64,000 nt of DNA. It comes from Bradyrhizobium commune (GTDB lineage: Bacteria; Pseudomonadota; Alphaproteobacteria; Rhizobiales; Xanthobacteraceae). Shown here piece after piece: positions 15,695 through 57,350 of this stretch (positions are counted from its first letter, which is position 1; each line of letters starts with the position of its first letter). The translations under genes and the position numbers were made by a program. The DNA is taken from positions 930,001 to 994,000 of the forward strand of contig NZ_CP061379.1 of assembly GCF_015624505.1 (NCBI RefSeq). Direction: 5' to 3'. The notes under the pieces are model-generated. The model made no database searches, was not told where the DNA came from, and saw only the letters and a list, made by a program, of their open reading frames with translations.

Positions 15695-15696
15695 GG

Positions 15697-18735: not shown

Positions 18736-18761
18736 ACGTTTCTGACTGAAGGAGTGCCCCA

Positions 18762-32468: not shown

Positions 32469-32490
32469 CGGCGGACTCCTGCAGGGATGA

Positions 32491-34284: not shown

Positions 34285-34368
34285 CTCAGCCCCGACAATA
34301 TGCGCGCAGCCTATGTGCAATCTCCCGAAAGGCAAGCATCGGCTCTGTGATATTCGTCACATTGCGCG

Positions 34369-34406
34369 GAATTACGGGAATTACGGTGAATTACGCGGAA
34401 TTACGG
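34369..34406. repeat. short tandem repeat GAATTACGG x4
   Basis: Four 9-bp units at 34369, 34378, 34388 and 34398 (third reads GAATTACGC), with 0-1 base spacers. It abuts copy B of the 92-bp element and lies upstream of the caspase-like gene. Confidence 0.8.
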
Positions 34407-38012: not shown

Positions 38013-38531
38013 TCATGCGGATGGTGCTGTCGCTGACGACGATGGTATCTGCGATAGCGCTGTGATGGGCCTTCCGGGCCGCCCGATCAAAGCCTTGCGG
38101 TAAAAGAAAAGCCTCTGATCCGCGGTGTCGCTCGCCGCGGGCGCGGTCCCGAGCTCACTAAACAGTTCATATCCGTTCTTGCTGCAAAATCCCGGTGTCT
38201 GGAAAGCGTACATGCTGAGCCAGCAGCCCAGGCACCCATTGTCGCGTGCGGCGTTCTCGATGGCCGCCAGCAGGCGCGAGCCAAGGCCCTGGCGGCGATC
38301 GGCTTCGGCGACGAACAACAAATCGATCAGCAGCCAGCCGTAAAGGATGATGCCCCAGACGCCGCTGGTGACCTCGCCGGTATCTGAATCCCTTATGATA
38401 ATCGCGATATTGCGGTACCCGCCCGGTCCACCGTTGGCCAGATTGGCGTTGGCCAGCCGCTGCAACAGGGCGGCGTGATCGCGGGAATCGGGCGACCAAT
38501 CGACGAAAAGCTCGTGCTTCACATTACTCAC
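38013..38531 (-). CDS. GNAT-family acetyltransferase
   Basis: 172 aa. IDLLFVAEADRRQGLGSRLLAAIENAARDNGC contains the acetyl-CoA-binding R/Q-x-x-G-x-G/A motif (RRQGLG). FQTPGFCSKNGYELFSEL is the typical GNAT 'F-Y-x-x-x-G-F' equivalent. The substrate is not predictable. It is divergent from the NRPS-like gene at 38635, only 103 bases away, but nothing else ties it to that cluster. Confidence 0.88.
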   Translation of the reverse strand: MSNVKHELFVDWSPDSRDHAALLQRLANANLANGGPGGYRNIAIIIRDSDTGEVTSGVWGIILYGWLLIDLLFVAEADRRQGLGSRLLAAIENAARDNGCLGCWLSMYAFQTPGFCSKNGYELFSELGTAPAASDTADQRLFFYRKALIGRPGRPITALSQIPSSSATAPSA

Positions 38532-38634
38532 GTTTTTCTATGCTTCTATGCGGTTCGTGCTCAGCGGCGCGAGCCAGAATCTTTCGGAAAAAATCAGTTC
38601 GTTCGACACTTCATTCGACACATAGAAAAGAAGT

Positions 38635-41046
38635 ATGACAGCTCTGCTAGCGTCCGCGAATGCAGCGGCAGCATTGCCACACGCCGGCCCGGCATCTGCA
38701 TCCCAGCGCCGGGCGTGGTTCATGGAGCTGGTCGCTCCAGGCACCGCGCAACATCATCTGCCGTTCGGGCTCGAGATTTTCGGCGACCTCGATATCGCAG
38801 CGCTTCAGTTCAGCCTCGATTTCCTTGTCGACCGTCACGAAGCCTTGCGGACGGTATTCCTGGATGATCGCGGCGAGCTTCTCCAGGTCGTCGGACGACC
38901 CCGCGCAGTCGTCGCACATGTCGATGCCCCATCCGGTCCCGACACCGACCTGCACGCCATCCTTCGTGAAAAGGTGTCGGCTCCCTTTGACCTCGGCGCC
39001 GGCCCTCTGCTCCGTCTGGTTGCCGTCAGGCGCGCACCGGGGGTACATGTCCTGGTCTTCGTCCTGCACCATATCATTGCCGACAACCTGTCGCTCGGTC
39101 TGTTCGCGCGAGAGATGGCCGAGGTCTATCGCGCCTTTGCAGCGCGCAGCGTGCCGACGCTGACTCGGCTGCCATGGCAATATGCCGACTTTGCCATCGC
39201 TGAAGACCGTTGGCTCGAGGGTGCCGCATTCGGCTCGCGCCTGAAGCGTTACGCGGACTTGATCGGCCCGGCCGCAGCGAAGCTGGACTTTGGTCCCGGA
39301 CAAGCGGGGCAGGGCACCGCCAACCACCTCATGTCACTCGATGTCACATTGGTGCATCGCCTCAAGCAGGTCGCGCAGCGATCGGGCGTGACGCTGTTCA
39401 CGGTGCTGCTTGCCGCCATCGAAACGGTGCTCGCACATTACGCGGACGGCCCGGATTTCGTTATCGCTGTGCCTGTCGGCGGCCGCACCAGTGACGGTGC
39501 GGAAGGCGTGATCGGCCCATTTGCCAATATCATCGGCGTCAAGACCAGCCTTCGCGCAGGCGGGACCATGGCTGAGCTTCTGGTCGACGCCCAACGCCAG
39601 CTTCTTGCCAGTCTCGAGTATGAGAACGTGCCCTGGGACGCGCTGGTGCGTGTCAAAAATCCTGCGCGCTCGGCCGGTGCTTTGCCGTTTGGTCAAGTCA
39701 TGCTGTCTTCGATCGCGGTGCCGGCGCCGTTTCAGCGCTTCGGGAGCCTGCCGTGCCGACAGATCTGGCTGCCTTCCCCCCCACCACCAAGCGATCTCTT
39801 TGTCAGCGCATCGGAGAGCCCGGACGGGCTCCTGTGGCTCGGTTTCGACAGCGGGCCGGACAAGGTATCTCCCGGTACCGTCGCCCGTCTGGCGGACGCG
39901 CTGCGCGCCGTTCTGCTGGACATCGCTTACGGCGACATTACCGGCCTCGAGCCGTATCCGGGACGCGACACCGGCGCCGGTGCGCCTCGTCATCACGTCC
40001 ATGATGCTGTTGGAGTCAAGACCGCCGACAGCCCAGCCCGCAATGCCGCCGGAACGCAGGAGCGTCGCAAGGTGCTCGAGACGCTTGTTGCCGGGCTGTG
40101 GCGGGAGCATCTCGGCGTCCCGGCAGGTCACGCGGAAGAAGACTTCTTCGAGTCCGGCGGCGACTCGCTGCTGGCGGTGCGTTTGATGTCGCAGCTATGC
40201 TTGCGGCTCGATCGCAAGCTTCCGGTAGCACTGTTCTTCAGGGATCCCACGCTCAATGGCCTCGTGAATCATCTCCTGGAAAACGAGAGCGGCGAGCCGG
40301 ATTACGCCGTCGTCAAGCTCGCGGACGGCGTTGATGGCCGGGTGCTGTTTGCAAGCACCGGGCAGGAAGGTCTCAACGAACTGGCCGCAGCGATGCAGCC
40401 AGGGCCATCGGTCTATGACTTGAACACTTACTTCCTTCAAGAGCAGCGACTGCTTGCCGGCCAGCCGATGTTCGACAGCGTTGAGGCCATCGCCGCGGAA
40501 TTCCGGCACCGGCTGAAGGCGATCCAGCCAAAAGGTCCCTATCTGCTGGCAGGCGGCTGCGAAGGCGGCGTGCTGTTTTTCGAGCTGGCGCTTCAGCTTC
40601 AGCGGCAAGGCGACGAGGTTGCTTTCCTCGGCCTGCTGGATACGCCCGTCCGCGGTTACTGGGAGTCGAAACCGGCCTTTCTCGAACCGTTCAGGGAGGC
40701 CAAGCGGCGGCTGCTGGAATTGATCGCGCGACAGCGATCCCAGCCGAAGGCGCCGGAGGACGAGCGATACGAACTCATCTGGGCAAAGGTCTGGCAGGCC
40801 GTGCGCGCGTACCAGCCCGAACGCCGCTTTGACGGAGACGTTCACCAGTTCAAGGCGACGAAAACGAGATTCGGAGTTGCCGATGTTGCGCTTGGTTGGG
40901 ACACGAGGATCACCGGCCGGGTCATGGTCCATATGGTAGAGGGCGGCCACATGAGCTGGATCACCAATCCGCAAAGCGGCGCGACCGTCACCGCCGTGCT
41001 GGATGCAACGGTGCCGGCTCCCGCCTCGCCCGGACCTGTCCGGTGA
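38635..41046 (+). CDS. NRPS-like protein: condensation - carrier - thioesterase
   Basis: 803 aa. Condensation domain at ~20-440: QRRAWFMEL start and catalytic motif HHIIADN at 145-151 (HHxxxDG with N for G). Carrier domain ~475-550 with phosphopantetheine Ser511 in FFESGGDSLLAVRL. C-terminal thioesterase ~565-795, where the nucleophile elbow is GGCEG with Cys642 in place of the usual Ser; acid and base look to be LLDTP and EGGHMSW. There is no adenylation domain, so the carrier must be loaded in trans, for example by the A domain of 43164-46502. First gene of an operon with an ABC exporter (GTGA overlap). Confidence 0.88.
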   Translation: MTALLASANAAAALPHAGPASASQRRAWFMELVAPGTAQHHLPFGLEIFGDLDIAALQFSLDFLVDRHEALRTVFLDDRGELLQVVGRPRAVVAHVDAPSGPDTDLHAILREKVSAPFDLGAGPLLRLVAVRRAPGVHVLVFVLHHIIADNLSLGLFAREMAEVYRAFAARSVPTLTRLPWQYADFAIAEDRWLEGAAFGSRLKRYADLIGPAAAKLDFGPGQAGQGTANHLMSLDVTLVHRLKQVAQRSGVTLFTVLLAAIETVLAHYADGPDFVIAVPVGGRTSDGAEGVIGPFANIIGVKTSLRAGGTMAELLVDAQRQLLASLEYENVPWDALVRVKNPARSAGALPFGQVMLSSIAVPAPFQRFGSLPCRQIWLPSPPPPSDLFVSASESPDGLLWLGFDSGPDKVSPGTVARLADALRAVLLDIAYGDITGLEPYPGRDTGAGAPRHHVHDAVGVKTADSPARNAAGTQERRKVLETLVAGLWREHLGVPAGHAEEDFFESGGDSLLAVRLMSQLCLRLDRKLPVALFFRDPTLNGLVNHLLENESGEPDYAVVKLADGVDGRVLFASTGQEGLNELAAAMQPGPSVYDLNTYFLQEQRLLAGQPMFDSVEAIAAEFRHRLKAIQPKGPYLLAGGCEGGVLFFELALQLQRQGDEVAFLGLLDTPVRGYWESKPAFLEPFREAKRRLLELIARQRSQPKAPEDERYELIWAKVWQAVRAYQPERRFDGDVHQFKATKTRFGVADVALGWDTRITGRVMVHMVEGGHMSWITNPQSGATVTAVLDATVPAPASPGPVR

Positions 41047-41879
41047 CCGAGCGCCCTGTCATCGTGATCGGGCGCGCAACGCCGGCGTTGCGGCGCGTGC
41101 CCGCAGGCCTCGCTGAACTGGCCGCCTACCGCGAGTTGCTCGGATACATGACGGCCAATCGTCTCCAGGTGCGCTATCAGGACAGCTGGCTGGGGTGGGC
41201 CTGGGCCGTGTTGCAGCCGCTCGCGTTGCTGGGATTTCTCCTGGTGGTTGGACTGGCGATCGGCGCCCATACCACCACTGGCGCTGCTTACCCGCTATTT
41301 ATCCTCGCCAGCCTGTCGCCGTGGACCTTCTTCGCGACATCCCTGAGCACTGCGGCTGCGGCAGTGTTGAACAGCAGATCGCTCATCGCCAAGGTGTATT
41401 TCCCGCGCGAGATCGTGCCGCTGTCCTGCGTCTTCGCCGCGCTCGCCGACCTCGCGGTCGCCACGGCGGTGACGATCGTAGCTCTGCTCTGCGCCGGCTA
41501 CGGCATACCGGCGACGGCCATCGAACTTCTGCCGATCGGCCTCATCCTGATTGTCTACGCGGCGGCTTTTTCGTTGCTGATCTCGATCGCGCAGATCGGA
41601 TTCCGCGATATCGCAATCGGATTGCCACTGCTGCTCCAGGGATTGATGCTGACGACGCCGGTGCTGTATCCGCTGGACGCCGTTCCCGAGCACTGGCGCC
41701 TCGTCTATTCGCTCAATCCCCTGGCGCTGCTGGTTGAGGCCTTCCGCGACGCCTTGCTAGACAGGCACACCGTCAGCTTCGGGCAACTCGTTTACGCAGC
41801 GGTCGTCGGGCTGATCCTGCTCGCAATGGCGTATTTCGTGTTCAAGACCGCAGAGCCCGACATGGTCGACGACATCTAG
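41043..41879 (+). CDS. ABC transporter permease, ABC-2 polysaccharide-export type
   Basis: 278 aa from a GTG that overlaps the NRPS stop (GTGA), supporting coupling. Six hydrophobic segments in the Wzm/TagG arrangement, with RYQDSWLGWAWAVLQPLALLGFLLVV and SPWTFFATSLSTAAAAVLNSRSLIAKVYFPREIVPL being family hallmarks and a C-terminal LNPLALLVEAFRDALL. It forms the membrane channel with the ATPase 41896-43047. This type normally exports O-antigen, teichoic acid or lipid-linked glycans; here context suggests a natural-product cargo. Confidence 0.9.
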   Translation: MTERPVIVIGRATPALRRVPAGLAELAAYRELLGYMTANRLQVRYQDSWLGWAWAVLQPLALLGFLLVVGLAIGAHTTTGAAYPLFILASLSPWTFFATSLSTAAAAVLNSRSLIAKVYFPREIVPLSCVFAALADLAVATAVTIVALLCAGYGIPATAIELLPIGLILIVYAAAFSLLISIAQIGFRDIAIGLPLLLQGLMLTTPVLYPLDAVPEHWRLVYSLNPLALLVEAFRDALLDRHTVSFGQLVYAAVVGLILLAMAYFVFKTAEPDMVDDI

Positions 41880-41895
41880 CCAAGCAAATCCAACC

Positions 41896-43047
41896 ATGTC
41901 CGCTGTCGATATTGTCGCCCGCAACGTCTCGAAGTCCTACCGCGTCCATCACGACGGCAGGCGCGGCCGTGGCCTGTTCGGGTCTGGGACGACGGAACGC
42001 TTTTGGGCATTGAAGAATGTCGGCTTCGAGGTCCGGCGGGGCGAGGCGCTCGGCGTTGTCGGTCCGAATGGCTCCGGCAAGACGACCTTGATCAAGCTGC
42101 TCGCCCGCATCACGTCGCCGGATAGCGGGCAAATTTCCATCGCCGGCCGGTTGATGTCGCTGGTGGAGGTCGGAGCGGGTTTCCATCCCGAACTCAGCGG
42201 CCGCGACAATGTCTTCCTGAACGCCGCCATCTTTGGCGTTCCGGTCGAGCAGGTGCGAAAGCGCTTCGACCACATTGTGGAATTCTCTGGCCTCGCGGAT
42301 TTCATCGACGCACCCGTCAAGACCTATTCATCCGGCATGTTCGTCAGGCTGGGATTTGCCGTCGCCTCGCAGCTCGATGCGGATATCCTGCTTCTCGACG
42401 AAGTTTTGGCGGTCGGCGATTTGGCTTTCCAGGCGCGCTGCATCGACAGGATCGCGGAAATCCGACGATCCGGACGCACGATATTGCTGGTGTCCCATGA
42501 TCTCGCGGCCGTGGAACTGCTTTGCGACCGTGTCCTTCTCCTCGCCTCCGGCAAAGTGGCGGGCGACGGCGGACCCGTTGAGATGATCGAGAGATACCAG
42601 GCCATGGCGGCAACGTCCGCTCCTGGTTGCGGCTCGGCTGTGCAAGGCGGCGTCGCCACCCTTGAGGGCGTCAGCTTCGCTGGCCGTGACGGTGCGCGCC
42701 CCAGGACCGGAGATCCGCTGACCGTGCGCGTGAACTACCACGCCCTGTCGGCGGTCGATGATGCCGTGGTCACGGTGAGCTTCATATGGCCCAGCGGCTA
42801 TATCTGCACCGAGTTGGTGTCATCGACGTCCACGCTCGCTGCCGGGCACGGGTCCATTGTCTTCGATTGCCCGATGCTTGCCATGCAGCGGGGGCTTTAC
42901 ACGGTCGATCTCACCGTCTCCGCCGGCGCCGGTCGTGTCCTCGCAAAATGCGTGCGTGCCGCGCCGTTTCGGGTCGACCCGGGTCTTGTCGTGCACGGCG
43001 ATTTCCATATGACCCACAGCAGCAGGCTGGAGCCGGCCGGGACCTAA
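41896..43047 (+). CDS. ABC transporter ATP-binding protein, Wzt-like with C-terminal binding domain
   Basis: 383 aa. Walker A GPNGSGKTT, Walker B ILLLDEVLAVGD, signature region TYSSGMFVRLGFAVASQ, and H-loop SHD. The VEVGAGFHPELSGRDNVFLNA segment is typical of Wzt/TagH exporters. After ~residue 240 a beta-rich C-terminal domain (PLTVRVNYHALSAVDDAVVTVSFIW ... VDLTVSAG) resembles the Wzt carbohydrate-binding domain, which recognises the cargo. It starts 16 bases after the permease stop and closes the operon. Confidence 0.92.
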   Translation: MSAVDIVARNVSKSYRVHHDGRRGRGLFGSGTTERFWALKNVGFEVRRGEALGVVGPNGSGKTTLIKLLARITSPDSGQISIAGRLMSLVEVGAGFHPELSGRDNVFLNAAIFGVPVEQVRKRFDHIVEFSGLADFIDAPVKTYSSGMFVRLGFAVASQLDADILLLDEVLAVGDLAFQARCIDRIAEIRRSGRTILLVSHDLAAVELLCDRVLLLASGKVAGDGGPVEMIERYQAMAATSAPGCGSAVQGGVATLEGVSFAGRDGARPRTGDPLTVRVNYHALSAVDDAVVTVSFIWPSGYICTELVSSTSTLAAGHGSIVFDCPMLAMQRGLYTVDLTVSAGAGRVLAKCVRAAPFRVDPGLVVHGDFHMTHSSRLEPAGT

Positions 43048-43094
43048 AGCATGATCCGGAAAAGTGCGAAGCGGTTTTCCGGAAAGATCATGCT
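43048..43094. repeat. 47-bp palindromic repeat, copy 2
   Basis: AGCATGATCCGGAAAA ... TTTTCCGGAAAGATCATGCT, the diverged partner of 24386-24432. Confidence 0.85.
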
Positions 43095-43105
43095 CAAGCA
43101 ACAAC

Positions 43106-43148
43106 CTAAAGCGCGATGATGATTCATCCTGATCTCATCGCGCTTTAG
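43106..43148. terminator. bidirectional stem-loop between convergent operons
   Basis: CTAAAGCGCGATGA (43106-43119) pairs perfectly with TCATCGCGCTTTAG (43135-43148) around a 15-base loop. It sits between the ABC ATPase stop (43047) and the NRPS stop (43164), so it may end both transcripts, though no strong T-run is present. Confidence 0.6.
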
Positions 43149-43163
43149 ACGCTTCAGGGCATC

Positions 43164-46100
43164 TCAACTTCTGGCGCTGCGGATCAGCGCGTCGAGTTCC
43201 TCCGGCGACAATTGGGCAAGTCGGTCCCTCAGATCGTTCAGCTCCGCTCTGGATCGCGGCTGGGGACTGATCTCCGCCAGCCCGTCGTCCTGGGCCGGAG
43301 GGGCCGTTTCGACGACTTTCGAGAAGCCGGCCAATGTCGGGTTGTCGAACAGCGCGCGGATCGGGATGTCGATGCCGAACCGGCGCCGCACGCGAGAAAC
43401 AACCTGCATGACGAGCAATGAATTGCCGCCAAGTCCGAAGAAATCGTCGGTCGCGGCGATCTCGTTCTCGTTCAGGACAGTTCGCCAGATTTGCGCGACG
43501 TCGGCATTGACCGGGAGCGCGTCGACTGCCGGCTCATGCTGGGGAGAGGTGTCAGCGAGCGATTCAAGCTTCACCTGATCCACCTTGCCGCTCGGCAGCA
43601 GCGGAAGCGCGTCGATCACAAGCAGTTTGGCCGGAACCGCAGCCGGCGGCAGTCGCTCCTGAAGGTAGGCGCGCAAGGCACCTGGATCGGGGTCCTCGCC
43701 GGTCTGACGTCCGACCACGAATGCGATCAGACGCTGGCGGTCGGCATCACCGACAATGACGGTGGCCGCCTCCCTCACCGTGGCATGGCTGCGCAGCACC
43801 GCCAGGATCTCGCCGAGCTCCAGCCTCACGCCGCGCAACTTCACCTGACCGTCGGTGCGGCCGAGATAGAGAATAGTGCCGTCCTCGCGCCAGACACCGC
43901 GGTCGCCGGTATCAAACAGCAACGGCGAAGGCGCACCCGCAATCGGGTTGGCCTTGAAGCGCTCGGCCGTGAGGTCGGGTCTGCTCCAATAGCCCAGTGC
44001 GAGGCAGTCACCACCGACGTGAATCACGCCGGGCAGCCCCACCGGCGCAGGTTGGCCCGCGCGGTCGATGATGTAGACCTGCGTATTGGCGATGGGTTTG
44101 CCGATCGGCGCGGGCCCGTTGACGTCTGCGTCCCGAACCTCGTGGATCAGGACGTCCGCCGCCACCTCCGAGGATCCATAGATGTTGATGAGCTTTCGGC
44201 CAGGGCAGGCGAGGTTGAAACGCTGCACCAGATCGGGCGACAACGTTTCGCCGCTGACCGACCACACAAGGAGAGCCGGCAGGCGCCTGCCCAGATCCGG
44301 CGCGTAATCCAGCAGCACCCGCAGCAAGGTCGGGACCAGCACAATTCGGGTGACGCCATGCTGCCTGAGCAAGTTGATGAATGCCTCCGGATCGAGCAGG
44401 ATTTCATCCGGAACGATCACTGTCGGTATGCCTGCCAGCAAGGCGCCCAGCATTTCCCAGACGGAGTCGACGAAACCGATCGGCGTCTTGCAGCAGGCGA
44501 CCTCGCCAGCTGCGAATGGGTAGGCCTCGTGCATCCAGTCGATGCGGTTCATCAGGGCCCTGGTCGCGCCCATCACGCCCTTTGGCACCCCGGTCGAGCC
44601 GGATGTGAAAAGCACATAGGCAAGCTCGCTGCTGGACCCGGTCGCGATTGGCCCGGCCGGCTCGCTCCAAAGCGGCGCATCCGGATCCATTGGTACGGTC
44701 GCAAGCCGCTCGGGCAGGCGATTGGCCAGGGCGCGAAGAGTCAACGCGGTACGGCAGCCCGAGAGCTCGACGAGCTGCGCGAGGCGCGTGTCCGGCTGTG
44801 CCGTATCGAGCGGCAGCCAGGGGATGCCTGCGGTCAAGCAGCCCAGCATCGCGGCAAAGGCCTCGACAGAACGGGGCAGGAAGATTCCGACCGGCCCCGC
44901 TGCGGTGGCGGCCTGGCTGCGCAGCGCTGTCGCGACCTGCCCGGCTCGCCGGGCAAGCTCGCGGAAGCTGATCCGTTGGCCATCGCAGATCAACGCGATG
45001 TCGTCCGGCCGTTCGTCCGCAATCGCGGCGAAGAGTTCTGCCGGCGTCCGTTGTCCGTAGTCGCGTGCCGTGGCGTTCCAGTCGAACACCGCGCGCTGCC
45101 ACTCATCATCGTCGAGCAGCCGAATGCTGCCGATCGGTCGCTCGGGCTCTGCTGTCACCGCTTCCAGAATGCGTCGGAAATGCGCGACCAGCCGCGCCAT
45201 GATCGGCCGGTCGAACAGCTCGCTGTCATATTCGAAGGAGCAGAGGAGTTCGTCGCCCTCGACGATCTCGAACGTGAGATCCAGCTTGGCGAGGCCAGGG
45301 TCGACGGCGACCTCCTGAATTTCGAGGCCGGCCAATTCCGGCGCCTTGTGCCCGAAATTGTGCAGCACGAACATGACCTGGAACAGCGGCGAATGATCGC
45401 GCGCCCGCGGCCGTTCCAGTTCCGCGACGACTCGTTCGAACGGAACCTCCTGGTGCTCAAGCGCATCCAGCATGAATGAACGGTTCCGCCTCAGCAGCGT
45501 GGTGAAGGTTGGATCGCCCGAAAGATCGCCTCGCAGCGTCAGCGTGTTCACGAAGCAGCCGATCAGCGGCGCAAGATCCTCGTCGCGATGTGCCGACAGC
45601 GGTGTTCCGACGACGACATCGTCGGTGTCGGCCCAGCGCTGTAGCAGCACCTGAAATGCCGAGAGGAGCCCCATGAAAAGCGTGGCGCCGTGACGCGCGC
45701 ACAAGCTGCTCAATGCCTTGGTGCGAGGCTCGTCGATTTCGAAACCGATGCGTTTGCCGTGGTGTTTCTGAATGGCGGCGCGGGGGCGGGCGGTCGGCAG
45801 CGCGAGGAGCGGAGGCGCGCCGGCGAGCGCCCTCTTCCAGAACGCGATGTTCCTGTCGAAACCGGCCTGCGCGTATCGCCGTTGCTGGCGCTCGGCGAAT
45901 TCGGTGTATTGGAACGCAAGATCGGGGAGCACGGCAGAGCTGCCGCGTCGTTCGGCGTCGTAGAAACTTGCGAGCTCCGCGAAGAACGGCCCCATCGACG
46001 ATCCATCGATGATGGCGTGATGGAAGACGATCACGAACTGATGCTCTTCCTCGGCGAGGCGCACCAGCGCCGCCCGGAAGTGCGGCGGGACGGCGAGGTC

Positions 46101-46502
46101 GAAAGCCGTTTGGCCCATCCGCGCCGCAAGCGCGTCTGCCTGCTGGCTGCGCTCCGGCTCCTGGTGGGCGCTGAAGTCGTGCTCTTCGAGGATAAACTGG
46201 ATACGCTCATGCACGTCTTGCAGAACGGTTCCATCCCGTTCGACAAGCCCGGTTCGCAGCACTTCATGTCGTGCAACCAGCCCGCTGAAGGCGCGTGCCA
46301 GGCTGTGCTTGTCGACCGCGCCCTTGAGCTGCAGCACTCTGGTTATATTGAACGCAGGGGCACCTGGGTCGAGCTCATTGGTTAGCCAGAAAGCGCGCTG
46401 TTGAGCGGAAGCTGTTCGCAGGTGCTTTCGACGTACGAAATCAAGCAAACCAAATCTCCATCCCGGCGCTATATTCGGGTGCTGGAAAGAACGCGGCGGC
46501 AC
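43164..46502 (-). CDS. NRPS module: condensation - adenylation - carrier
   Basis: 1112 aa, starting at GTG 46502. Condensation domain ~25-465 with intact HHAIIDG (161-167). Adenylation domain ~480-985 with YVLFTSGSTGVPKG, GYWSRPDLTAERF, FDTGDRGVWREDG, LGRTDGQVKLRG and PSGKVDQVKL. Carrier domain with Ser1028 in FFGLGGNSLLVMQ, then an acidic helical tail. No epimerase or thioesterase. By hand alignment to GrsA the specificity residues read V-D-W-V-S-S-I-A-D-K, close to codes reported for beta-alanine; this is tentative. It may feed the A-less C-T-TE protein. Convergent with the exporter operon and downstream of sagB-like. Confidence 0.9.
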   Translation of the reverse strand: MPPRSFQHPNIAPGWRFGLLDFVRRKHLRTASAQQRAFWLTNELDPGAPAFNITRVLQLKGAVDKHSLARAFSGLVARHEVLRTGLVERDGTVLQDVHERIQFILEEHDFSAHQEPERSQQADALAARMGQTAFDLAVPPHFRAALVRLAEEEHQFVIVFHHAIIDGSSMGPFFAELASFYDAERRGSSAVLPDLAFQYTEFAERQQRRYAQAGFDRNIAFWKRALAGAPPLLALPTARPRAAIQKHHGKRIGFEIDEPRTKALSSLCARHGATLFMGLLSAFQVLLQRWADTDDVVVGTPLSAHRDEDLAPLIGCFVNTLTLRGDLSGDPTFTTLLRRNRSFMLDALEHQEVPFERVVAELERPRARDHSPLFQVMFVLHNFGHKAPELAGLEIQEVAVDPGLAKLDLTFEIVEGDELLCSFEYDSELFDRPIMARLVAHFRRILEAVTAEPERPIGSIRLLDDDEWQRAVFDWNATARDYGQRTPAELFAAIADERPDDIALICDGQRISFRELARRAGQVATALRSQAATAAGPVGIFLPRSVEAFAAMLGCLTAGIPWLPLDTAQPDTRLAQLVELSGCRTALTLRALANRLPERLATVPMDPDAPLWSEPAGPIATGSSSELAYVLFTSGSTGVPKGVMGATRALMNRIDWMHEAYPFAAGEVACCKTPIGFVDSVWEMLGALLAGIPTVIVPDEILLDPEAFINLLRQHGVTRIVLVPTLLRVLLDYAPDLGRRLPALLVWSVSGETLSPDLVQRFNLACPGRKLINIYGSSEVAADVLIHEVRDADVNGPAPIGKPIANTQVYIIDRAGQPAPVGLPGVIHVGGDCLALGYWSRPDLTAERFKANPIAGAPSPLLFDTGDRGVWREDGTILYLGRTDGQVKLRGVRLELGEILAVLRSHATVREAATVIVGDADRQRLIAFVVGRQTGEDPDPGALRAYLQERLPPAAVPAKLLVIDALPLLPSGKVDQVKLESLADTSPQHEPAVDALPVNADVAQIWRTVLNENEIAATDDFFGLGGNSLLVMQVVSRVRRRFGIDIPIRALFDNPTLAGFSKVVETAPPAQDDGLAEISPQPRSRAELNDLRDRLAQLSPEELDALIRSARS

Positions 46503-46836
46503 CGGGAGCCCGCATTCCAGAGCAACACATCCAGCAGGACTGCGGCCATAAAGGTCCGCGTTTCAAATCTCATTCGATGCCGATCGCGATCTTGAAATGT
46601 GCTTGATGCGCCGACACTGCAACCTAGCGCCAATTGGCGACAACCATTTGTCGTGGAAGTGGAATTCGTCCACTCTGCAGTTGTTGGATCGCGGACATAT
46701 TGTCGCCGCGCCATCGGCTCCTTCCGCAGGTCCCTCCCGCAAAGATCGCGGGCTGAATTGTTACGCAATCTGAATAACATAACAGTTCGCGATTTATTCC
46801 GAACGGTGCGGTATTTTTGCGCGCGGTCGAGGCCGG
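46503..46836. other. intergenic gap between sagB-like gene and NRPS
   Basis: 334 bases without a gene. It is AT-richer than its surroundings around 46745-46815 (TTGTTACGCAATCTGAATAACATAACAG region). As it precedes the NRPS on the minus strand it may hold a promoter for that gene; no terminator hairpin was recognised after the sagB-like stop. Confidence 0.4.
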
Positions 46837-48300
46837 CTACATCTGGCTCGCGACCTCCGGCTTCCTCCCCCGCCCCAGCGCGAACTGTCCAACCGCGCCC
46901 TCCACGTAAAATTCCAGCCCCGTCATTCCCCCAAACAGATCGATGTTGCCCGTCCCGATGGCGCAGCCGCCGAGGCCCATGTCGGTGGCTGCCAGATAGA
47001 ACGTCTGGAGCAGGCAGCCGACGTCCTTCAGGATCAGCGAATAGGCGATCGAGCTGTACTTCCAGGAGATTCGGCCGAAGCGGGCGGCGATCGTGATCAG
47101 GACTTGCGGCGGACCGGATGCGCCCATGGCGAATTCGGCGGCCGCCAAAAGCGCCTGGAGCTGTTGGGCCGAAGCGTCGATCGCGACCAGGGCGTGGCCG
47201 CTCGCGTCGTAGTGATAAAGTCCGCGCGCAAGGCCCTCGCAGTTCGAGACTGCCAGATACAGCTCCAGCTCATAGGCGCTGCCTGCACCCGGATACGGCC
47301 TCGCGCTGTAGGTGACTTCCGGACCATCGTCGAAATCTGCGGCGCCCTTCCATTCCGACAGCACGCGAGCGGTGGTGTCGAGAAACTGCGCGAGCTCGGC
47401 GAGCGTGAGGGGATGCTGGTCGTCAAAATCCCGCGTTGAATGGCGCTCGCGCAACAGGTTTGCGAAGGGTGATTTTGGCTCGAGCGCGGTGCGTTTGCCG
47501 AGCGCGATCGTTTTGCCCGGCCAGCGCGGGCGCACCGCGGGCAGGGGCGGAACGACCCGCGCATGGAGGTAGGCGCCGCCAACGGGATTGACGTGCCGGC
47601 CCTCCGTGCTCCGCGTGTGAAACACGAGATCGTGGAAATCCCAGAGCACGAGATTGCGGTCGCCTTCATTCACCCGACCGCCGTCTGCGTCGTTCGCACC
47701 GAGCTTGAGCAGCATCTCGGCTTCGAGCAGCAAGCCGAGCAGGTCGAGGTTCACAGCGGCCATTTGCTTGCGAAGCGCGCTGATTTTTTGCGGTTGAGAC
47801 AGCGCTGCCAGCGTGGCGACGATGGCGGGATCGCAAATCCGAAACAGCGCGCCGGCACGCGGCGATTCCAGCACCATCTCGTTGCCGCGTCGGCGCAGAT
47901 AGGCAAAGCGCGACAACACGATGGTATCGCTGCTCGACAGCTTTGCGGTGTGCGGCCAGTAGTCGGCGATCAGTGGTTCGATGACCACCAAATCTTGCGC
48001 ATCGCGAGGAGAGAACAGGCGATAGGCAAGAAGCCCGTGCCGCGCCAGTCGTTGCACCAGACCATGAACCTGCTTGGCGAGGACGCTCTTGCCGGCAAGG
48101 GCGGCGAGCGGCAGGCCGGTCGCAAGATGCCCCGCGCGCTCGATCGCCGCGGCGCTGAACTGTCCGAGGCTGACCGCATAATCGCTGGAGACGGCGGCAA
48201 TGCTGCCGTCGGGCTGCATCTGAAGGGAGAAACGGCCATTCAGGCGGGCGGCGATGATCGGTGCGCTTGTCCTCGTCGGCTTTGTCCGGGTCGTGCGCAA
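46837..48300 (-). CDS. sagB: SagB-type FMN dehydrogenase (azoline oxidase)
   Basis: 487 aa. The nitroreductase-fold domain begins near residue 275: NLLRERHSTRDFDDQHPLTLAELAQFLDTT, followed by ARPYPGAGSAYELELYLAV, DVGCLLQTFYLAATDMGLGGCAIGTG, all typical of SagB/McbC enzymes that oxidise thiazolines/oxazolines to thiazoles/oxazoles with FMN. The N-terminal ~270 residues form the extra domain found in long SagB proteins. It starts 12 bases after the YcaO fusion stop, so the two are cotranscribed. Confidence 0.92.
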   Translation of the reverse strand: MRTTRTKPTRTSAPIIAARLNGRFSLQMQPDGSIAAVSSDYAVSLGQFSAAAIERAGHLATGLPLAALAGKSVLAKQVHGLVQRLARHGLLAYRLFSPRDAQDLVVIEPLIADYWPHTAKLSSSDTIVLSRFAYLRRRGNEMVLESPRAGALFRICDPAIVATLAALSQPQKISALRKQMAAVNLDLLGLLLEAEMLLKLGANDADGGRVNEGDRNLVLWDFHDLVFHTRSTEGRHVNPVGGAYLHARVVPPLPAVRPRWPGKTIALGKRTALEPKSPFANLLRERHSTRDFDDQHPLTLAELAQFLDTTARVLSEWKGAADFDDGPEVTYSARPYPGAGSAYELELYLAVSNCEGLARGLYHYDASGHALVAIDASAQQLQALLAAAEFAMGASGPPQVLITIAARFGRISWKYSSIAYSLILKDVGCLLQTFYLAATDMGLGGCAIGTGNIDLFGGMTGLEFYVEGAVGQFALGRGRKPEVASQM

Positions 48301-48312
48301 CGAGGCCAGCCT

Positions 48313-50553
48313 TCAGGTGTGTGGCAGGAATGGAGTGAGCTCGCTTTCCAGTCGCGGGCGATCCAGGAGCCCGAGCTTTACCGGGACATCGTAAAGCCGG
48401 CCGGGCCCGAAGCGGCGATAGAAATGCCGCAGGCCCGGAACCAGCACCCTGACGACGGGGACCTCGACATCGGGCCGCGTCTGGTCGAGCACGAGGAAAT
48501 CGTACCCCGCGCGGGTGGCAATCTCGACGCAGGCATTGACCTGGTCGCGCGTGTTGTCGTGAACCTTGAGGCTTGGTGCCGGCGGGAGAAGCGGCTTGTC
48601 GTCGGGGATCAGGAACGGATAATCGTCGAGCCGTAGCGGCGTGAGGCCGTCAAGCGACGGTTTCTCGCCGCTTCCGCCGCCCATCATGCCGATCGACATG
48701 AACTGGGTCAGCTCGGTGAGGGAGCGCAGCAATGCGATGCGGCGATCGAAATGCGATCCGGACCCGAACTCGATATTCTCGTGTCCGTTCTGCATCCAGT
48801 GCATGATCGCGACGTAGGAGGGAATGCCGAGATCGCTGGTGATGTCGAGCACCCAGAGCCGGCGCCCCGCGTCGGCAAACTGGTTTTGGAGATCCCGTAC
48901 ATAGGAATCCTCGAACTGCGAGAGGTCGAGCTCGGCGCGGCGGACGCGATTGTACCACCAGATCGCGTAGGCATCGCGCTCGACCAGCTCGAGGAAGCCC
49001 TGGACGATCGCCTCCTCACGGGTGTTGCCGGCCGCGCACCCGTTGGAATCTGTGTGGAAGCCGCCATAGAAGAAATACAACAGCCCGGTCGGAAGATATT
49101 TGAAGCGCTTGTCACGCAAGGACCAGACCGGGGACCACTCCGTCCTGGTCGAAGGATCGAACGGCTCCGGGACCGGATGCGAATCGTCCGGTTGCGGGAC
49201 GTACCTGTTCTGAAACTGCGTGTCGCTGAAGAACTGGACGTCGTTGGGAAGCAACGCGTCACCGGGCGCGAAATCGGCAAAGCGGCGCTTTGCCCTGATC
49301 TCGTCACCCTGGAAAATGCCGGAGTAGCGCTCGATCGCCTCCATCAGCGCGCTGGCCTCACCCTGCTCGGCCGTGGAGCCCTTGCCGAAACTGCCGCCGC
49401 TGAGGCCGGACCTGAGCTGGTCGACATTCCAGGCCGGTGCAGAGAAATTGTGGTGGGCGAAAAAATTGGTGTTCATCGGCAGATCGGCCTCGATCCGCTC
49501 GAGCCGCGACACCACGCCGGTCAGCGGACTGACATGCTTGCGATACCGCGCCACGGTGGCCCGCGACGTCACGGTGCGATATCCGCCGCTGGTCATGACG
49601 AGCTTGCTGCCCTCGGCGATGTCGACCGGCACTGCTGCCCGTCGCGGATTCCTCAGCTTCTTGCTGCCGCAGGTCGCGCATTGCGGGCGCTTCGCGACAT
49701 AGTGCTTGGCGATAACGGCGCCGGTCAGATCGAAGCTTGCGATGTGATCGCTGAGATCGGTGCGGAATCCCGAGGCGATCGCCTTGGCGATTTCAACGGC
49801 AGCGAAGTGGATCGCGGTCTGTCCGACGGTGTGGCTGACCAGCGGCGAGATGGCGACCGCTTGCGCGGCGCCGCGGTCGAGAAATCCCTTGATCTCGCGA
49901 TTGCGGATCATGCGGTCGTGCAGGCAGGTCCGGCAGGCGCTCTCGCCCGGCTTGAACACAGGCCCGACCAGTGGAAACACGCCGGACGGCTGCACCAGCA
50001 GCCAGGGTGTCCCGCCGGCGACGCGCTTCTCGTTCAATTCGACGAGGTGCCGCTCGAGGTAGTCGTTCACAAGCGTGATGGTGAGGCTGGGCGACCGCTT
50101 GGCGATGTGAACGCCGAGCTTGCTCAACGCCGCGCTCAGCTCGGTCGCGCCTTTGACGTCGATCGATTCCACCCGCACCGGCCAATTGCGCAGGTTCTCT
50201 GCGGCGGTCTCGGGAGGCAGGCCGAGGCTTGCCCAATATCCATCGACAGCACTCCTGTGCGATGCTCCGCTGACGACGTAGCGGCGCTCCAGCAAACGCC
50301 TGATCGCCTCCTCGATCTCGGCTATCGGGAAACTCTTCGACAGCTGGCGGATGATCTCCGGCGCGGCCTTGCCGTTTTTTCCGATCGCGCTCGCCACGGC
50401 GCAATAGAGATCGCCATGCAGGAAGAACTTGCGGTTCTCGGAATAGAGGCAGACCGCATTGGGCGGAAGCAGGTAGGCGGTGAAGTTCGGCGCAAATCGC
50501 AAAATGTCGTTGCGGATCTGCTTCGCGGCGCGGCTGTTTCGCTTGACTGTCAT
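48313..50553 (-). CDS. TOMM cyclodehydratase, fused E1-like (C) and YcaO (D) protein
   Basis: 746 aa. An N-terminal PqqD-like winged-helix (~20-100) is a likely precursor-recognition element. An E1-like C domain follows with Zn ligands C207/C210 (SACRTC) and C292/C295 (QCATC). From ~345 the YcaO domain has SFGKGSTAEQGEASALMEAIERY and SNGCAAGNTREEAIVQGFLELVERDAYAIWW, the ATP/Mg-binding motifs. It would convert Cys (or Ser/Thr) in the precursor to azolines. The C-terminus ends TPFLPHT rather than the canonical PxPxP. Upstream is the Cys-rich precursor; downstream the SagB oxidase. Confidence 0.93.
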   Translation of the reverse strand: MTVKRNSRAAKQIRNDILRFAPNFTAYLLPPNAVCLYSENRKFFLHGDLYCAVASAIGKNGKAAPEIIRQLSKSFPIAEIEEAIRRLLERRYVVSGASHRSAVDGYWASLGLPPETAAENLRNWPVRVESIDVKGATELSAALSKLGVHIAKRSPSLTITLVNDYLERHLVELNEKRVAGGTPWLLVQPSGVFPLVGPVFKPGESACRTCLHDRMIRNREIKGFLDRGAAQAVAISPLVSHTVGQTAIHFAAVEIAKAIASGFRTDLSDHIASFDLTGAVIAKHYVAKRPQCATCGSKKLRNPRRAAVPVDIAEGSKLVMTSGGYRTVTSRATVARYRKHVSPLTGVVSRLERIEADLPMNTNFFAHHNFSAPAWNVDQLRSGLSGGSFGKGSTAEQGEASALMEAIERYSGIFQGDEIRAKRRFADFAPGDALLPNDVQFFSDTQFQNRYVPQPDDSHPVPEPFDPSTRTEWSPVWSLRDKRFKYLPTGLLYFFYGGFHTDSNGCAAGNTREEAIVQGFLELVERDAYAIWWYNRVRRAELDLSQFEDSYVRDLQNQFADAGRRLWVLDITSDLGIPSYVAIMHWMQNGHENIEFGSGSHFDRRIALLRSLTELTQFMSIGMMGGGSGEKPSLDGLTPLRLDDYPFLIPDDKPLLPPAPSLKVHDNTRDQVNACVEIATRAGYDFLVLDQTRPDVEVPVVRVLVPGLRHFYRRFGPGRLYDVPVKLGLLDRPRLESELTPFLPHT

Positions 50554-50795
50554 CGGGTCAGCACGCTGATCCTGTTCCCGTCATGTTGCCAGCGCACCAC
50601 GGACGCTTGGCCGGCCAAGCTGTGCGCCGAGCATCGCTGTCTTTCGTTGCATGAGTTGGAACATACTCGCGCGCGATCGGCAAGCTGAGGCCAGCGAAGC
50701 GAACGCCGTCATGAAAACAGCAATTGGCCGGGTCGTTTGCGCGCCCGGCCAATGAAATCGCGACCTGTCGATGTGCAGTCAGGGAGCGCCAACGC
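50554..50795. other. gap between precursor and YcaO gene
   Basis: 242 bases, no gene. Short symmetric GGCCGGGTCG...GGCGCGCCCGGCC near 50727-50751 could form a processing or attenuation hairpin between the abundant precursor message and enzyme genes. Confidence 0.35.
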
Positions 50796-51257
50796 CTAGC
50801 ACCAGCGGCAGCGGCCCCATGATGCGCAGCAGCCCGTGCATGCTACCGGCACGCCGATCCAGCCAATGCCGCAACCGCCACAACCACCGCACCCGACACC
50901 GCAGCGGCAGGCTCGGCAGCCTCCGCAACCTCGACAGCCGCGGCAACCGCCGCAGCCACGGCAACCGCAGCCACCGCATCCGCGCGCGAGCAGCACGCCG
51001 CTCAAGGTTTTTTCGTCGCCGGCGAGATGGAAGGTGGCGAGGTTGACGTCGGCGAGCTCTTCCTCGCTGAGCGCAGTGAAGTGGCCGGGCGTGAAGCTCG
51101 GTCGTTGTTGAGGCTCGGCTGCCGGCAGTGCGGACGCCATCGCGCTTCCCGCCAGTGAAAACGTCAGTCCGGCGAATCCGAGCGCAGGCACTGCGGCTTT
51201 GACCATTCGGGCTTCGGTCATTCGCTTCTTTTTCGAAGCTTGCTTCGTTCGCTGCAT
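50796..51257 (-). CDS. Cys-rich TOMM/LAP precursor peptide
   Basis: 153 aa from the ATG at 51257, chosen because GGAGG lies 9-13 bases upstream; the frame runs 23 codons further without an RBS. The first ~92 residues contain no Cys: a basic start (RTKQASKKKR), a hydrophobic stretch (AAVPALGFAGLTFSLAGSAMASA) that looks like a Sec signal, and ALSEEELADVNLATFHLAGDE like a leader recognition helix. From residue 94, 18 Cys alternate with Gly and Arg (CGGC, CRGC, CGGC) and end TGCCASWGRCRWC. It lies directly upstream of cyclodehydratase and oxidase genes. Conversion of these Cys to thiazoles is inferred. Confidence 0.9.
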   Translation of the reverse strand: MQRTKQASKKKRMTEARMVKAAVPALGFAGLTFSLAGSAMASALPAAEPQQRPSFTPGHFTALSEEELADVNLATFHLAGDEKTLSGVLLARGCGGCGCRGCGGCRGCRGCGGCRACRCGVGCGGCGGCGIGWIGVPVACTGCCASWGRCRWC

Positions 51258-51462
51258 GGCCGCATCCTCCATGTGGGAAGAACGATCTTCTGCAACGATC
51301 CTACGGTGCGCAATCAAACTGGGCAAGATTCACGTGAACACGAAATGGTATGGCGCCCGTTCGGATTCTATTCATCTTCATGAACACTTGGCGGTAAATT
51401 CTTGTCCATGCGGCGCATGATGCAGTGCGCAATCGTCTGCCCGCGCGAACGGGGAAGCTAGC

Positions 51463-52332
51463 TTGGCCGATCAATCCGGACACTTCGTTTGGTACGAGCT
51501 TCTGACGACGGACGTGCCGTCGGCCGCTGCTTTTTACGCCGAGGTCGTCGGCTGGACTGCAAAAGACGCGTCGAGCCCGGAGCTGGCCTACACGCTGCTG
51601 ACGACAGGCGGCGCTCCGGTCGTCGGTCTCATGAATCTCCCTGAAGAAGGGGTTCGCATGGGCGCAACGCCGAGATGGCTCGGCTACGTCGCCGTCGATG
51701 ACATGGATGTCATGATTGCGCAAATCCGTCGGCTCGGCGGCACCATCCTGGTCTCGCCGACCGACAGCAACATCGGCCGCATTGCAGTGGTCGCCGATCC
51801 GCAAGGCGCGACGTTTGGATTGGTCACGGGCCTGACACATGGCCAATCGCAACCGGGCGGATCGGACCAGCCCGGGCGCGTGGGCTGGCACGAGTTGCTG
51901 GCCGAAGATCGGCGGAGGATCTTTCCGTTTTACCGCGAGCTTCTCGGCTGGCAACAGGCCGACGCTGGATCCGATCCGGCAGACGTGTACGACATGTTTT
52001 CAGTGGCGGGGCAGACGATCGGCGGCATGCTCACCAAGCTTCCGAGCGTATCGCAGACATGCTGGCTGCATTACTTCAATGTCGAAGACGTCGGCGCGGC
52101 GGCGAGACGCGTCGATGCCGGCGGAGGACGGGTTCTCCAGGGGCCGATCGAATTGCCCGATGATTGCTGGATCGTGCGATGCGTCGATCCCCAGGGCGCC
52201 CTGTTTACGCTCCAGGGGGCGTGGGACCGGAAGGGCATCGAGCGATCCTCCGCCTCGGAAGTCAGCTGGTCCGCGAGATGGGGCGATATCGCGTCACAGG
52301 GCCGGATCGTGCGTGACAAGACCAGGCGCTAG
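51463..52332 (+). CDS. VOC-family (glyoxalase-like) protein, two tandem VOC modules
   Basis: 289 aa, start TTG at 51463 with GGGGAAG 9 bases upstream. Two VOC halves: FVWYELLTTDVPSAAAFYAEVVGW ... VADPQGATFGLV, and VGWHELLAEDRRRIFPFYRELLGWQ ... VDPQGALFTLQG. Such proteins resemble the glyoxalase/bleomycin-resistance superfamily and the 27-kDa antigen Cfp30B type. It is divergent from the precursor gene; it might protect against the product, but that is inference only. Substrate unknown. Confidence 0.87.
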   Translation: MADQSGHFVWYELLTTDVPSAAAFYAEVVGWTAKDASSPELAYTLLTTGGAPVVGLMNLPEEGVRMGATPRWLGYVAVDDMDVMIAQIRRLGGTILVSPTDSNIGRIAVVADPQGATFGLVTGLTHGQSQPGGSDQPGRVGWHELLAEDRRRIFPFYRELLGWQQADAGSDPADVYDMFSVAGQTIGGMLTKLPSVSQTCWLHYFNVEDVGAAARRVDAGGGRVLQGPIELPDDCWIVRCVDPQGALFTLQGAWDRKGIERSSASEVSWSARWGDIASQGRIVRDKTRR

Positions 52333-53434: not shown

Positions 53435-53552
53435 CGGACATCACGTCCGCTCCGCACGTCGCGCCGGCGGTCGATTCGCGATTGTGAGGCGGGTGCACAA
53501 GCCATCCGCCTCACCTCATGCTATGACTGCCCCGCAATCTTGCGAGGCCGCC

Positions 53553-54230
53553 ATGCTCCCCATTCCCGCCGACATCTTCACCGAGCCGGACGACGTCTCC
53601 CCGGACAGCCTTGCCAATCTCGGCCCGCTGCGCCGACTCGCCGGCACCTGGCAGGCCGACAAGGGCATCGACATCAATCCAAAGGGCAATGGGCCGGAGC
53701 GGCGGGTGTTCATCGAGCATATCCGGATGGACCCGATCGATGCGCAGGCCAACGGGCCGCAGCTGTTCTACGGGCTGCGCTATCACATCCACATCAACAC
53801 GCCCGAGGAGGACATCACCTTCCACGATCAGGTCGGCTACTGGCTCTGGGAGCCCGCGACCGGGCTGATCATGCAGACGCTGGCGATCCCGCGCGGCCAG
53901 GTGCTGCTCGCTTCCGGCAAGGCCAAGCCGGACGACAGAAAGATCTCCGTCACGGCGAAGCGCGGCGAGACGACCTACGGGATCTGCTCGACCGATTTTC
54001 TGGAACAAGCTTTCCGCACCGATTCCTATCGCTGCGACATCACGTTCAACGACGACGGCAGCTGGAGCTATTCGATCCAGACCGAGCTGTTCGTGCGCGG
54101 CGCGCCGTTCAACCATCACGACAGCAACACGCTGAAGCTCGTCGCGCCGCCAAAGCTCAATCCGCTCGCGGTGATCGTGAACGATCGCGCCAAGGGCGAC
54201 CGTGACAAGGGCAAAGGCCCGGCGGCGTGA
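53553..54230 (+). CDS. FABP-like heme-binding beta-barrel family protein
   Basis: 225 aa from ATG 53553 (GCGAGG upstream; an ATG at 53523 would add 10 residues). LGPLRRLAGTWQADKGIDINPKG is the G-x-W nitrobindin/FABP-like start; YHIHINTPEEDITFHDQVGYWLWEPATGLIMQTLAIPRG follows the 10-stranded barrel family. Some relatives bind heme and react with NO or peroxynitrite. The distal role here is unknown. Confidence 0.82.
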   Translation: MLPIPADIFTEPDDVSPDSLANLGPLRRLAGTWQADKGIDINPKGNGPERRVFIEHIRMDPIDAQANGPQLFYGLRYHIHINTPEEDITFHDQVGYWLWEPATGLIMQTLAIPRGQVLLASGKAKPDDRKISVTAKRGETTYGICSTDFLEQAFRTDSYRCDITFNDDGSWSYSIQTELFVRGAPFNHHDSNTLKLVAPPKLNPLAVIVNDRAKGDRDKGKGPAA

Positions 54231-54252
54231 CGCGGATGCGCGGAGACTTTTC

Positions 54253-54957
54253 ATGAAGCCTTACGTCATCTGCCTGATGCATTCGAGCCTTGACGGCCGC
54301 ACCCATCCGAGCCGCTGGCGGCCGAAGGGCGCCGGCACCGACTGGTTCGAGAAGATCCACGACGAACTCGGCGGCGATGCCTGGGTGATCGGCCGCGTCA
54401 CCGGCTCGGAGTTCGCCAAGGGCGAGCCCTATCCCGCAACGACGCGCGAGACGTTCCCGCGCGAAAGCTGGTTCGCGCGGCGCGACGCGAAAACCTATGG
54501 CGTCGTGCTCGATGCGCACGGCAAGATCGGCTGGGGCCGATCCGACATCGGCGGTGATCCCATCGTCGTGGTGCTGACGACAAGCGTGCCGGATTCGCAT
54601 CTTGCTGGGCTTCGTGGCGAGGGCGTCTCCTACATCTTTGCAGGCGAAGCGGAGATCGACCTCGCGCAGGCACTCGATACCCTCAATCGCGAGCTCGGGG
54701 TGAAGCGTTTGCTGGTCGAGGGCGGCGGCATCGCCAATGGCGCGTTCCTGCGTGCCGGTCTGATCGACGAATTCAATCTGATTCTCAGCCCCGCGATCGA
54801 CGGCGCGCGTGGCGCACCTTTCGTGTTCGATTCGACGGACGCCGACAGCGACAAACGCGCGCCGCTCAGCGCGATGACGCTGGAGAGCACGCGGCCGCTC
54901 GACGGCGGCGTGCTGCTGTTGCGCTACCTGATCCAGAACGACGTCGCGGACAGGTAA
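54253..54957 (+). CDS. RibD C-terminal-like (dihydrofolate-reductase fold) reductase
   Basis: 234 aa. VICLMHSSLDGRTHPS, the internal GDAWVIGRVT and KRLLVEGGGIANGAFLRAGLIDEFNLILSPAIDG follow the RibD reductase domain family; NADPH probably binds at VEGGG. Without the deaminase domain and away from rib genes, it is probably not a riboflavin enzyme. GGAG lies 8 bases before the ATG, and the amine-oxidase gene begins 10 bases downstream. Confidence 0.88.
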   Translation: MKPYVICLMHSSLDGRTHPSRWRPKGAGTDWFEKIHDELGGDAWVIGRVTGSEFAKGEPYPATTRETFPRESWFARRDAKTYGVVLDAHGKIGWGRSDIGGDPIVVVLTTSVPDSHLAGLRGEGVSYIFAGEAEIDLAQALDTLNRELGVKRLLVEGGGIANGAFLRAGLIDEFNLILSPAIDGARGAPFVFDSTDADSDKRAPLSAMTLESTRPLDGGVLLLRYLIQNDVADR

Positions 54958-54967
54958 AAGCAGCGGC

Positions 54968-56236: not shown

Positions 56237-56260
56237 AAAAGGCCCGCGTGTGCGCGGGCC
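56236..56260 (-). terminator. intrinsic terminator of the 56286-56573 gene
   Basis: On the minus strand, GGCCCGCG-CACA-CGCGGGCC (stem 8 bp) is followed by TTTTT (AAAAA at 56236-56240 on the plus strand). It also lies directly after the amine oxidase stop, which overlaps its T-run side. Confidence 0.8.
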
Positions 56261-56285
56261 CTTGGTTCAGCGGCGAATGGTCCGC

Positions 56286-56573
56286 TTACCAGCGACGGCC
56301 GCCGTAATAGCCGTAGGGTCCGCCGCCATAATAGCGGTGATGCCGCGGGTCGTAGCCATAGCTCCGGTAGTACGGACGGTAATGGCCGTGATGCGGGCGC
56401 CAATGGTGAGGGCGGTATCCGCGGTGGCGATGGCCGTGATGGTGGCGATACTGCGCGCTGATGTCGGTTGGGCCGGCGTTCGCCGTCGCCTTTGCGCTGC
56501 CAGCCGCGTTGGCCGTGGATCCGCCGGCGAGCGCGGCAGCACCGACAGCCATCGCGACAAAGAGATACTTCAT
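56286..56573 (-). CDS. small exported His/Tyr/Gly-rich protein
   Basis: 95 aa with a Sec signal peptide (MKYLFVAMAVGAAALAGGSTANA) and a mature part full of His, Arg, Tyr and Gly (YRHHHGHRHRGYRPHHW, YYGGGPYGYYGG). Such peptides are frequent in Bradyrhizobium; metal binding or envelope roles are possible but unproved. A good terminator follows. Confidence 0.78.
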   Translation of the reverse strand: MKYLFVAMAVGAAALAGGSTANAAGSAKATANAGPTDISAQYRHHHGHRHRGYRPHHWRPHHGHYRPYYRSYGYDPRHHRYYGGGPYGYYGGRRW

Positions 56574-56680
56574 GTCATCGCTCCAGTTGAGATGTCGTGA
56601 CAACAGATGGGGGCGCCTCGCGTTCCGGCGAGAGCGGGCGTCGAAACGACGCAGACCTGATTGATGGAGCGCGCTGAGAT

Positions 56681-57256: not shown

Positions 57257-57350
57257 GGCGGAATTCCGGCGACTGTCGTGACGAGTATGCGGGGCGTGTG
57301 CGGTTGCAGGCAACGGCGATTTTCCCTCGTTTCGGGACAAGGCCTGCACA

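Follow-up and report, generated by a model that had tools for sequence, protein, structure and literature searches.

Predicted azole-peptide genes and a rare NRPS/exporter block look like separate neighbours in a Bradyrhizobium genome

A stretch of 64,000 nucleotides from Bradyrhizobium commune (the window; G000:C1:930001-994000, within a single-contig genome of 7.62 Mb) carries genes for a predicted azole-containing ribosomally synthesised and post-translationally modified peptide (RiPP) beside genes for two non-ribosomal peptide synthetase (NRPS) proteins and an ATP-binding cassette (ABC) exporter. Do these genes form one hybrid pathway, as the original prediction held, or are they two gene sets that happen to adjoin? 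We consider it likely that they are independent, with a predicted azole-RiPP cassette (46837-52332) lying next to a rare NRPS/exporter block (38013-46502) that has its own exporter and a different product. Every gene named in the original prediction is present and oriented as described; its list lacked a conserved VOC gene, just outside the region it had delimited, and a GNAT gene. The features, in window coordinates, are:

38013-38531, minus strand: GNAT acetyltransferase, which accompanies the NRPS block in two of its three other copies (E<=1e-20)
38635-41046, plus strand: NRPS-like protein with condensation, thiolation and thioesterase domains (C-T-TE), of the NRPS/exporter block
41043-41879, plus strand: ABC-2 permease; frame open from 40896, probable GTG start at 41043 inferred from a GTGA overlap
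41896-43047, plus strand: Wzt-like ABC ATPase, of the NRPS/exporter block
46502 to 43164, minus strand: NRPS with condensation, adenylation and thiolation domains (C-A-T), of the NRPS/exporter block
48300 to 46837, minus strand: SagB/ThcOx-type dehydrogenase with a WKY motif (ThcOx PF22767, TIGR03605)
50553 to 48313, minus strand: fused E1-like/YcaO cyclodehydratase, LynD/TruD-like (TIGR03882, TIGR03604, PF02624)
51257 to 50796, minus strand: predicted azole-RiPP precursor, with GGAGG upstream of the ATG at 51257
51463-52332, plus strand: VOC protein of the glyoxalase/bleomycin-resistance superfamily (PF00903, two matched stretches)

When the cassette is followed into other genomes, the block does not accompany it. 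We collected 67 cassette loci with a pattern scan, whose short patterns reach close relatives only, and searched them by tblastn (E<=1e-3). YcaO is found in all 67, SagB in 66 and the window's precursor leader in 61, and homologues of the C-T-TE, C-A-T, permease and GNAT proteins in none; ABC ATPase matches do occur at some loci, at only 25-32% identity. The sequence beyond SagB measures at least 5 kb in 57, and at least 8 kb in 51, of the 66 loci with a SagB match. Seventeen further cassette loci, some probably from the same genomes as among the 67, contain no match to the block at E<=1e-20, one of them having just 3.2 kb beyond SagB. A genus sample of 265 genomes was also searched with YcaO, the precursor leader, C-T-TE and C-A-T. 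The YcaO protein matches in 119 genomes at E<=1e-30, of which three were set aside, two for holding only a 37-38% identical homologue (G057, G113) and one for a partial copy in an 81% complete assembly (G144); the remaining 116 are exactly those that hold the leader (queried without the core; matches counted at E<=1e-3). C-T-TE orthologues (64-100% identity) are confined to four of the 265 genomes (G000, G036, G223 and G106), with partial matches of 30-33% in six others, and C-A-T orthologues (73-100%) to the same four, the next best match being at most about 40%. Hence a C-T-TE orthologue is missing from 112 of the 116 genomes with the cassette.

The block stands apart from the cassette in its three other carriers. 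In the single contig of G223 the two are 1.7 Mb apart (block at 2.388-2.396 Mb, YcaO at 4.088 Mb); in G036 the cassette is on a different contig from the block, which lies within one of 91 kb; and in G106 the block is split over short contigs of 13 and 16 kb, with the cassette on a third. The genome G029 has the corresponding chromosomal site, free of the block. By blastn, window positions 32481-34369, 46842-52322 and 53528-57296 align with positions 3096-4985, 8046-13532 and 15193-18999 of its locus L139, and 3 kb stands where the window has the 12.5 kb that hold the NRPS block. Therefore either the block and its neighbouring genes arrived next to a cassette already in place, or G029 has lost them; gain is the simpler reading because only four genomes carry the block. 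A caspase-domain (Peptidase C14) protein is encoded to the left of the block (32491-34335), and lies near the cassette in L139.

A true hybrid, in which the C-A-T and C-T-TE proteins would (amino)acylate the polyazole and the Wzm/Wzt-like pair would export it, at least in this strain, is on this evidence very improbable. Its grounds are the adjacency in the window and the presence of the cassette in all four block genomes (probability 0.037 by chance), a weak hint of association that does weigh against two independent sets; against it stand the cassette loci without any block homologue, the rarity of C-T-TE among cassette genomes, the separate block of the other carriers and the G029 site. The hybrid pathway was rejected on these comparative grounds, as was the Wzm/Wzt pair as the RiPP exporter, given also the low identity of the ABC ATPases found at cassette loci. 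Homologous clusters that consistently lack the NRPS and exporter genes, which the original prediction had itself named as telling against a hybrid, are what the relatives present; neither the acylation or aminoacylation it ascribed to the NRPS proteins nor export by the Wzm/Wzt-type pair finds comparative support, although the two sets could have become coupled recently in this strain alone. Cassette and block thus look like two separate neighbours, adjacent in this strain.

What would the cassette make? Its enzymes resemble those of cyanobactin pathways. The fused protein matches LynD (1.4e-142), TruD (4e-137) and MusD (1.1e-128) in the PDB, its alignment with LynD spanning residues 17-741 of 746, and scores above the profile cut-offs (TIGR03604, 219.5 with a cut-off of 219.25; TIGR03882, 147.9 with 36.9). 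The oxidase has a match to CyaGox (4e-54) and a weak one to McbC, and scores 178.2 on the SagB profile TIGR03605, which has a cut-off of 78.4. WKY is retained in 82 of 83 SagB stretches, the sole miss (L046) being cut by a contig end, and the YcaO C terminus reads LPH[TS] in 78 of 84 copies, the others being three PRT ends of Methylocystis type, two PHT ends and one cut copy. A YcaO with an E1-like partner, an adjoining precursor with a conserved leader and a flavin dehydrogenase would together place the cassette among azole-forming RiPP systems (thiazole/oxazole-modified microcins, TOMMs, or linear azol(in)e-containing peptides). This part of the original prediction holds up, through homology to LynD/TruD and CyaGox and a Cys-rich precursor conserved with the enzymes. 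In our reading, the cassette is an azole RiPP system of the LynD/TruD kind, whose substrates are dispersed and probably Sec-exported.

The window's precursor has 153 residues, divided into a signal-like N terminus (1-42), a linker (43-61), a recognition segment (62-80) and a Gly/Cys-rich core (93-153). The core after LLAR counts 61 residues, not the 63 first given, with 18 Cys, one Ser and one Thr. We compared a set of 80 precursors, comprising 64 from named cassette loci, that of the window and 15 orphans. In alignment, MxRxKQASKKKR is followed by a moderately hydrophobic stretch to near an AxA-like site, a variable linker, EEELADVSLATFHLF and the Gly/Cys-rich core; the recognition segment common to the precursors is EEELADVSLATF. 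The aligned cores mostly end in CCASWGRCRWC, and 75 of the 80 precursors end in SWGxCRxC, the other five being three of Methylocystis type and two damaged or shortened orphans. Three precursors gave no Pfam match at E<=1, and one irrelevant NCBIfam match (0.14) was found among them. Pairwise comparison of codons in 19 precursors gives a third-position excess in all segments. Synonymous and non-synonymous differences number 1455 and 1036 in the signal-like segment, 602 and 483 in the recognition segment and 2648 and 1080 in the core, with 699 and 1391 in the linker and 515 and 707 in residues 81-92; change is thus mostly synonymous in the first three and not in the last two. We take this to indicate that the N terminus, recognition segment and core are translated and constrained.

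The N terminus resembles, and may be, a Sec-type signal peptide, judging from its charge (a median of +7 in the n-regions of the 80 precursors), its hydropathy and a lenient [ASVT]xA site in 79 of the 80. Several points weigh against this reading of the precursor. The lenient site has no control in these Ala-rich leaders, the h-regions are just moderately hydrophobic (best 14-mer mean 1.26-2.18), and the hydropathy shuffle control concerns the window's precursor alone, 0.027 of shuffles reaching its value. The precursors are related sequences, and the pairs in the codon comparison are not independent; nor is a TOMM precursor bearing a Sec signal known to us.

The precursors extend beyond the cassette itself. 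All 116 leader genomes carry the cassette YcaO, 34 of them hold two to seven leader matches at E<=1e-3, and at least 26 genomes have two or more places at E<=8.2e-15 among the matches listed. At 20 distant places from 13 genomes, the leader is encoded in every case; the C terminus reads SWGxCRxC in 17 copies and RWGACRIC in one, and the cores of the remaining two (L196, L204) are damaged or shortened. YcaO and SagB are absent from all 20 stretches (about 3 kb on either side). A copy in G234 is only about 20 kb from YcaO; for the others the distance ranges from over 100 kb to megabases, unless they occupy a different replicon or contig. The window's genome has a single precursor copy. The shared recognition segment and the strict co-occurrence suggest that the cassette enzymes serve the extra, scattered precursors. 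Peptidase C13 (legumain-like) genes lie directly upstream of the orphans L196, L198 and L199, from two genomes (by Pfam for two and by clustering for the third), and are possible maturation proteases. Near the orphans L193 and L194 are transposase (DDE) and reverse transcriptase genes, a possible means of precursor dispersal.

The VOC gene is present in 61 of the 67 cassette loci, in 60 of them upstream on the opposite strand, about 1 kb off, and downstream in L098; the six loci that lack it are three of Methylocystis type and three short or cut contigs. On the Methylovirgula plasmid pHY1 it lies downstream of SagB, and a relative (51%) adjoins one of the 20 orphan precursors, L202. That it is kept where the locus is rearranged points to a functional link with the cassette, which may be product binding or self-protection. 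No exporter or maturation protease recurs at the cassette in the neighbour families, which were clustered and are partly annotated. The Methylocystis-type cassettes without the VOC gene (L086, L087 and L088) have cores of WGWG and CRG repeats; Pfam identifies a carbamoyltransferase and an amidase flanking that of L086, and clustering puts their relatives in the corresponding positions of L087 and L088. A scan of positions 46300-51700 gave one promoter-like and four terminator-like sites, a yield on a par with that of shuffled sequences (0.8 and 4.6).

We propose a series of steps for the cassette. The E1-like domain would bind the conserved leader segment of the Cys/Gly-rich precursor, and YcaO, using ATP, would cyclodehydrate core Cys residues to thiazolines, as expected from LynD and TruD; the SagB-type enzyme would then oxidise these to thiazoles, again by homology. 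The modified chain may cross the inner membrane by means of its signal-like N terminus rather than a dedicated exporter, and the VOC protein may bind or neutralise the product. In many Bradyrhizobium genomes the same enzymes would serve the additional, scattered precursors. The NRPS block would make a different small molecule, released by its own exporter, having come to adjoin the cassette in this strain.

The function of the product admits several explanations. It is possible, though we would not favour it over the alternatives combined, that the product is a secreted azole antibacterial with a microcin B17-like core and that the VOC protein confers immunity. Gly precedes 908 of 1321 pooled core Cys, as in microcin B17; the VOC partner recurs at cassettes and adjoins an orphan; and the bleomycin-resistance proteins of the VOC superfamily bind thiazole-containing drugs. 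An antibacterial is harder to reconcile with core codons that change mostly synonymously and a nearly invariant C terminus, with the lack of a recurring exporter or protease in the partial annotation, and with three Methylocystis-type loci that do without a VOC gene. More tentatively, the cassette may define a distinct family of azole-modified, signal-bearing Cys/Gly(/His)-rich proteins, with a single YcaO-SagB pair for several scattered precursors (up to seven leader matches) that would be exported by the general pathway and act as extracytoplasmic metal ligands or surface proteins, not antibiotics.

A modified protein serving as a periplasmic ligand of copper or a similar metal, bufferin-like in function with YcaO chemistry, is rather unlikely taken alone, although the signal-like N terminus and the Cys/His/Gly repeats in Methylovirgula and several orphans would suit it, as would a related cassette in a Methylocystis record. 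The Methylovirgula sp. HY1 plasmid pHY1 (L209) encodes a Cys/His/Gly precursor at 8287-8772, upstream of the TOMM, SagB and VOC genes, and the locus is flanked by a multicopper oxidase gene and ccoNOPG (cbb3 oxidase). Most cassette cores, however, have little or no His, and any link to metals among the clustered, sparsely annotated neighbours of Bradyrhizobium cassettes would be hypothetical. Less probable still is a structural, cell-surface Cys/Gly-rich protein whose Cys are unmodified or partly cyclised; complete heterocyclisation would be much to expect of such long cores, with as many as about 21 Cys, but the enzymes and the precursor leader co-occur in all 116 genomes and the WKY motif is almost always kept.

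The cassette can be set beside known systems. It shares with cyanobactins (LynD, TruD, CyaGox/ThcOx) a fused E1-like/YcaO protein of near full-length similarity and a ThcOx/SagB-type oxidase, but no subtilase of the PatA/PatG-protease kind is found among the 19 window open reading frames (ORFs) scanned by Pfam, the rest of the genome lying outside that scan; and a long Gly/Cys core with a signal-like leader replaces the short macrocyclised cassette. Microcin B17 and other linear azol(in)e-containing peptides have the Gly-rich core, with Cys mostly after Gly, and YcaO with a dehydrogenase, but here the cyclodehydratase is of the fused type, no exporter recurs with the cassette in relatives and the precursors are dispersed in the genome. 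Bufferins resemble it in a Cys-rich RiPP precursor with a signal peptide (signal-like here) and differ in their MNIO enzymes and DUF2282-type precursors, in place of which we find YcaO and SagB and a precursor with no Pfam match at E<=1. Prochlorosins likewise have many precursors for one enzyme set, but their chemistry is that of lanthipeptides and not of azoles. We read the cassette, from its sequences, as combining cyanobactin-type enzymes, long microcin-B17-like cores, a signal-like leader and dispersed precursors.

The close clade seen consists of Bradyrhizobium, Methylovirgula, the three Methylocystis-type loci and a small number of differently named records; the named records closest by YcaO are mostly Bradyrhizobium, the best at 92-93% identity. 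A class-wide YcaO search matched 13 of 385 genomes, its own included, at 32-43% identity. Within the genus, G057 and G113 have as their sole fused YcaO, and G108 and G116 as a second one, a protein of 34-38% identity; near it, these four genomes showed no precursor of the family type. None was found among the four most Cys-rich ORFs of each locus at the class homologues and the in-genus 34-38% homologues, and the longer stretches L167-L182 contain no ORF with a recognition-like motif or a Cys/Gly-rich tail at the thresholds used.

The block consists of the GNAT, C-T-TE, permease, ATPase and C-A-T genes, and would likely make a small exported lipo- or aminoacyl compound. The thioesterase motif is GGCEGG, with Cys at the expected Ser position, in the window and all three orthologues, and the C-A-T gene of G106 carries an in-frame stop. 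The adenylation-domain code, read by eye from mapping to a GrsA adenylation-domain fragment, is V-D-W-V-S-S-I-A-D, which resembles beta-alanine codes, an assignment we make with low confidence. The C-terminal Pfam match of the Wzt-like protein falls under its cut-off (26 as against 30.4 bits). Outside the genus, a search of 378 sampled phylum genomes returned no C-T-TE orthologue, just G000 itself and two partial matches of 32-33%, and a plasmid search gave no C-T-TE match at E<=1e-60.

These results show that RiPP and NRPS genes lying side by side are not in themselves a ground for calling a hybrid pathway. Annotation can also overlook precursors of this kind; that of pHY1 is missing from the gene table shown for its record, a table that is incomplete. 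If the proposed protein family is real, azole RiPP chemistry would act on substrates of general export, one enzyme pair serving scattered precursors, and would do so in 116 of the 265 Bradyrhizobium genomes examined.

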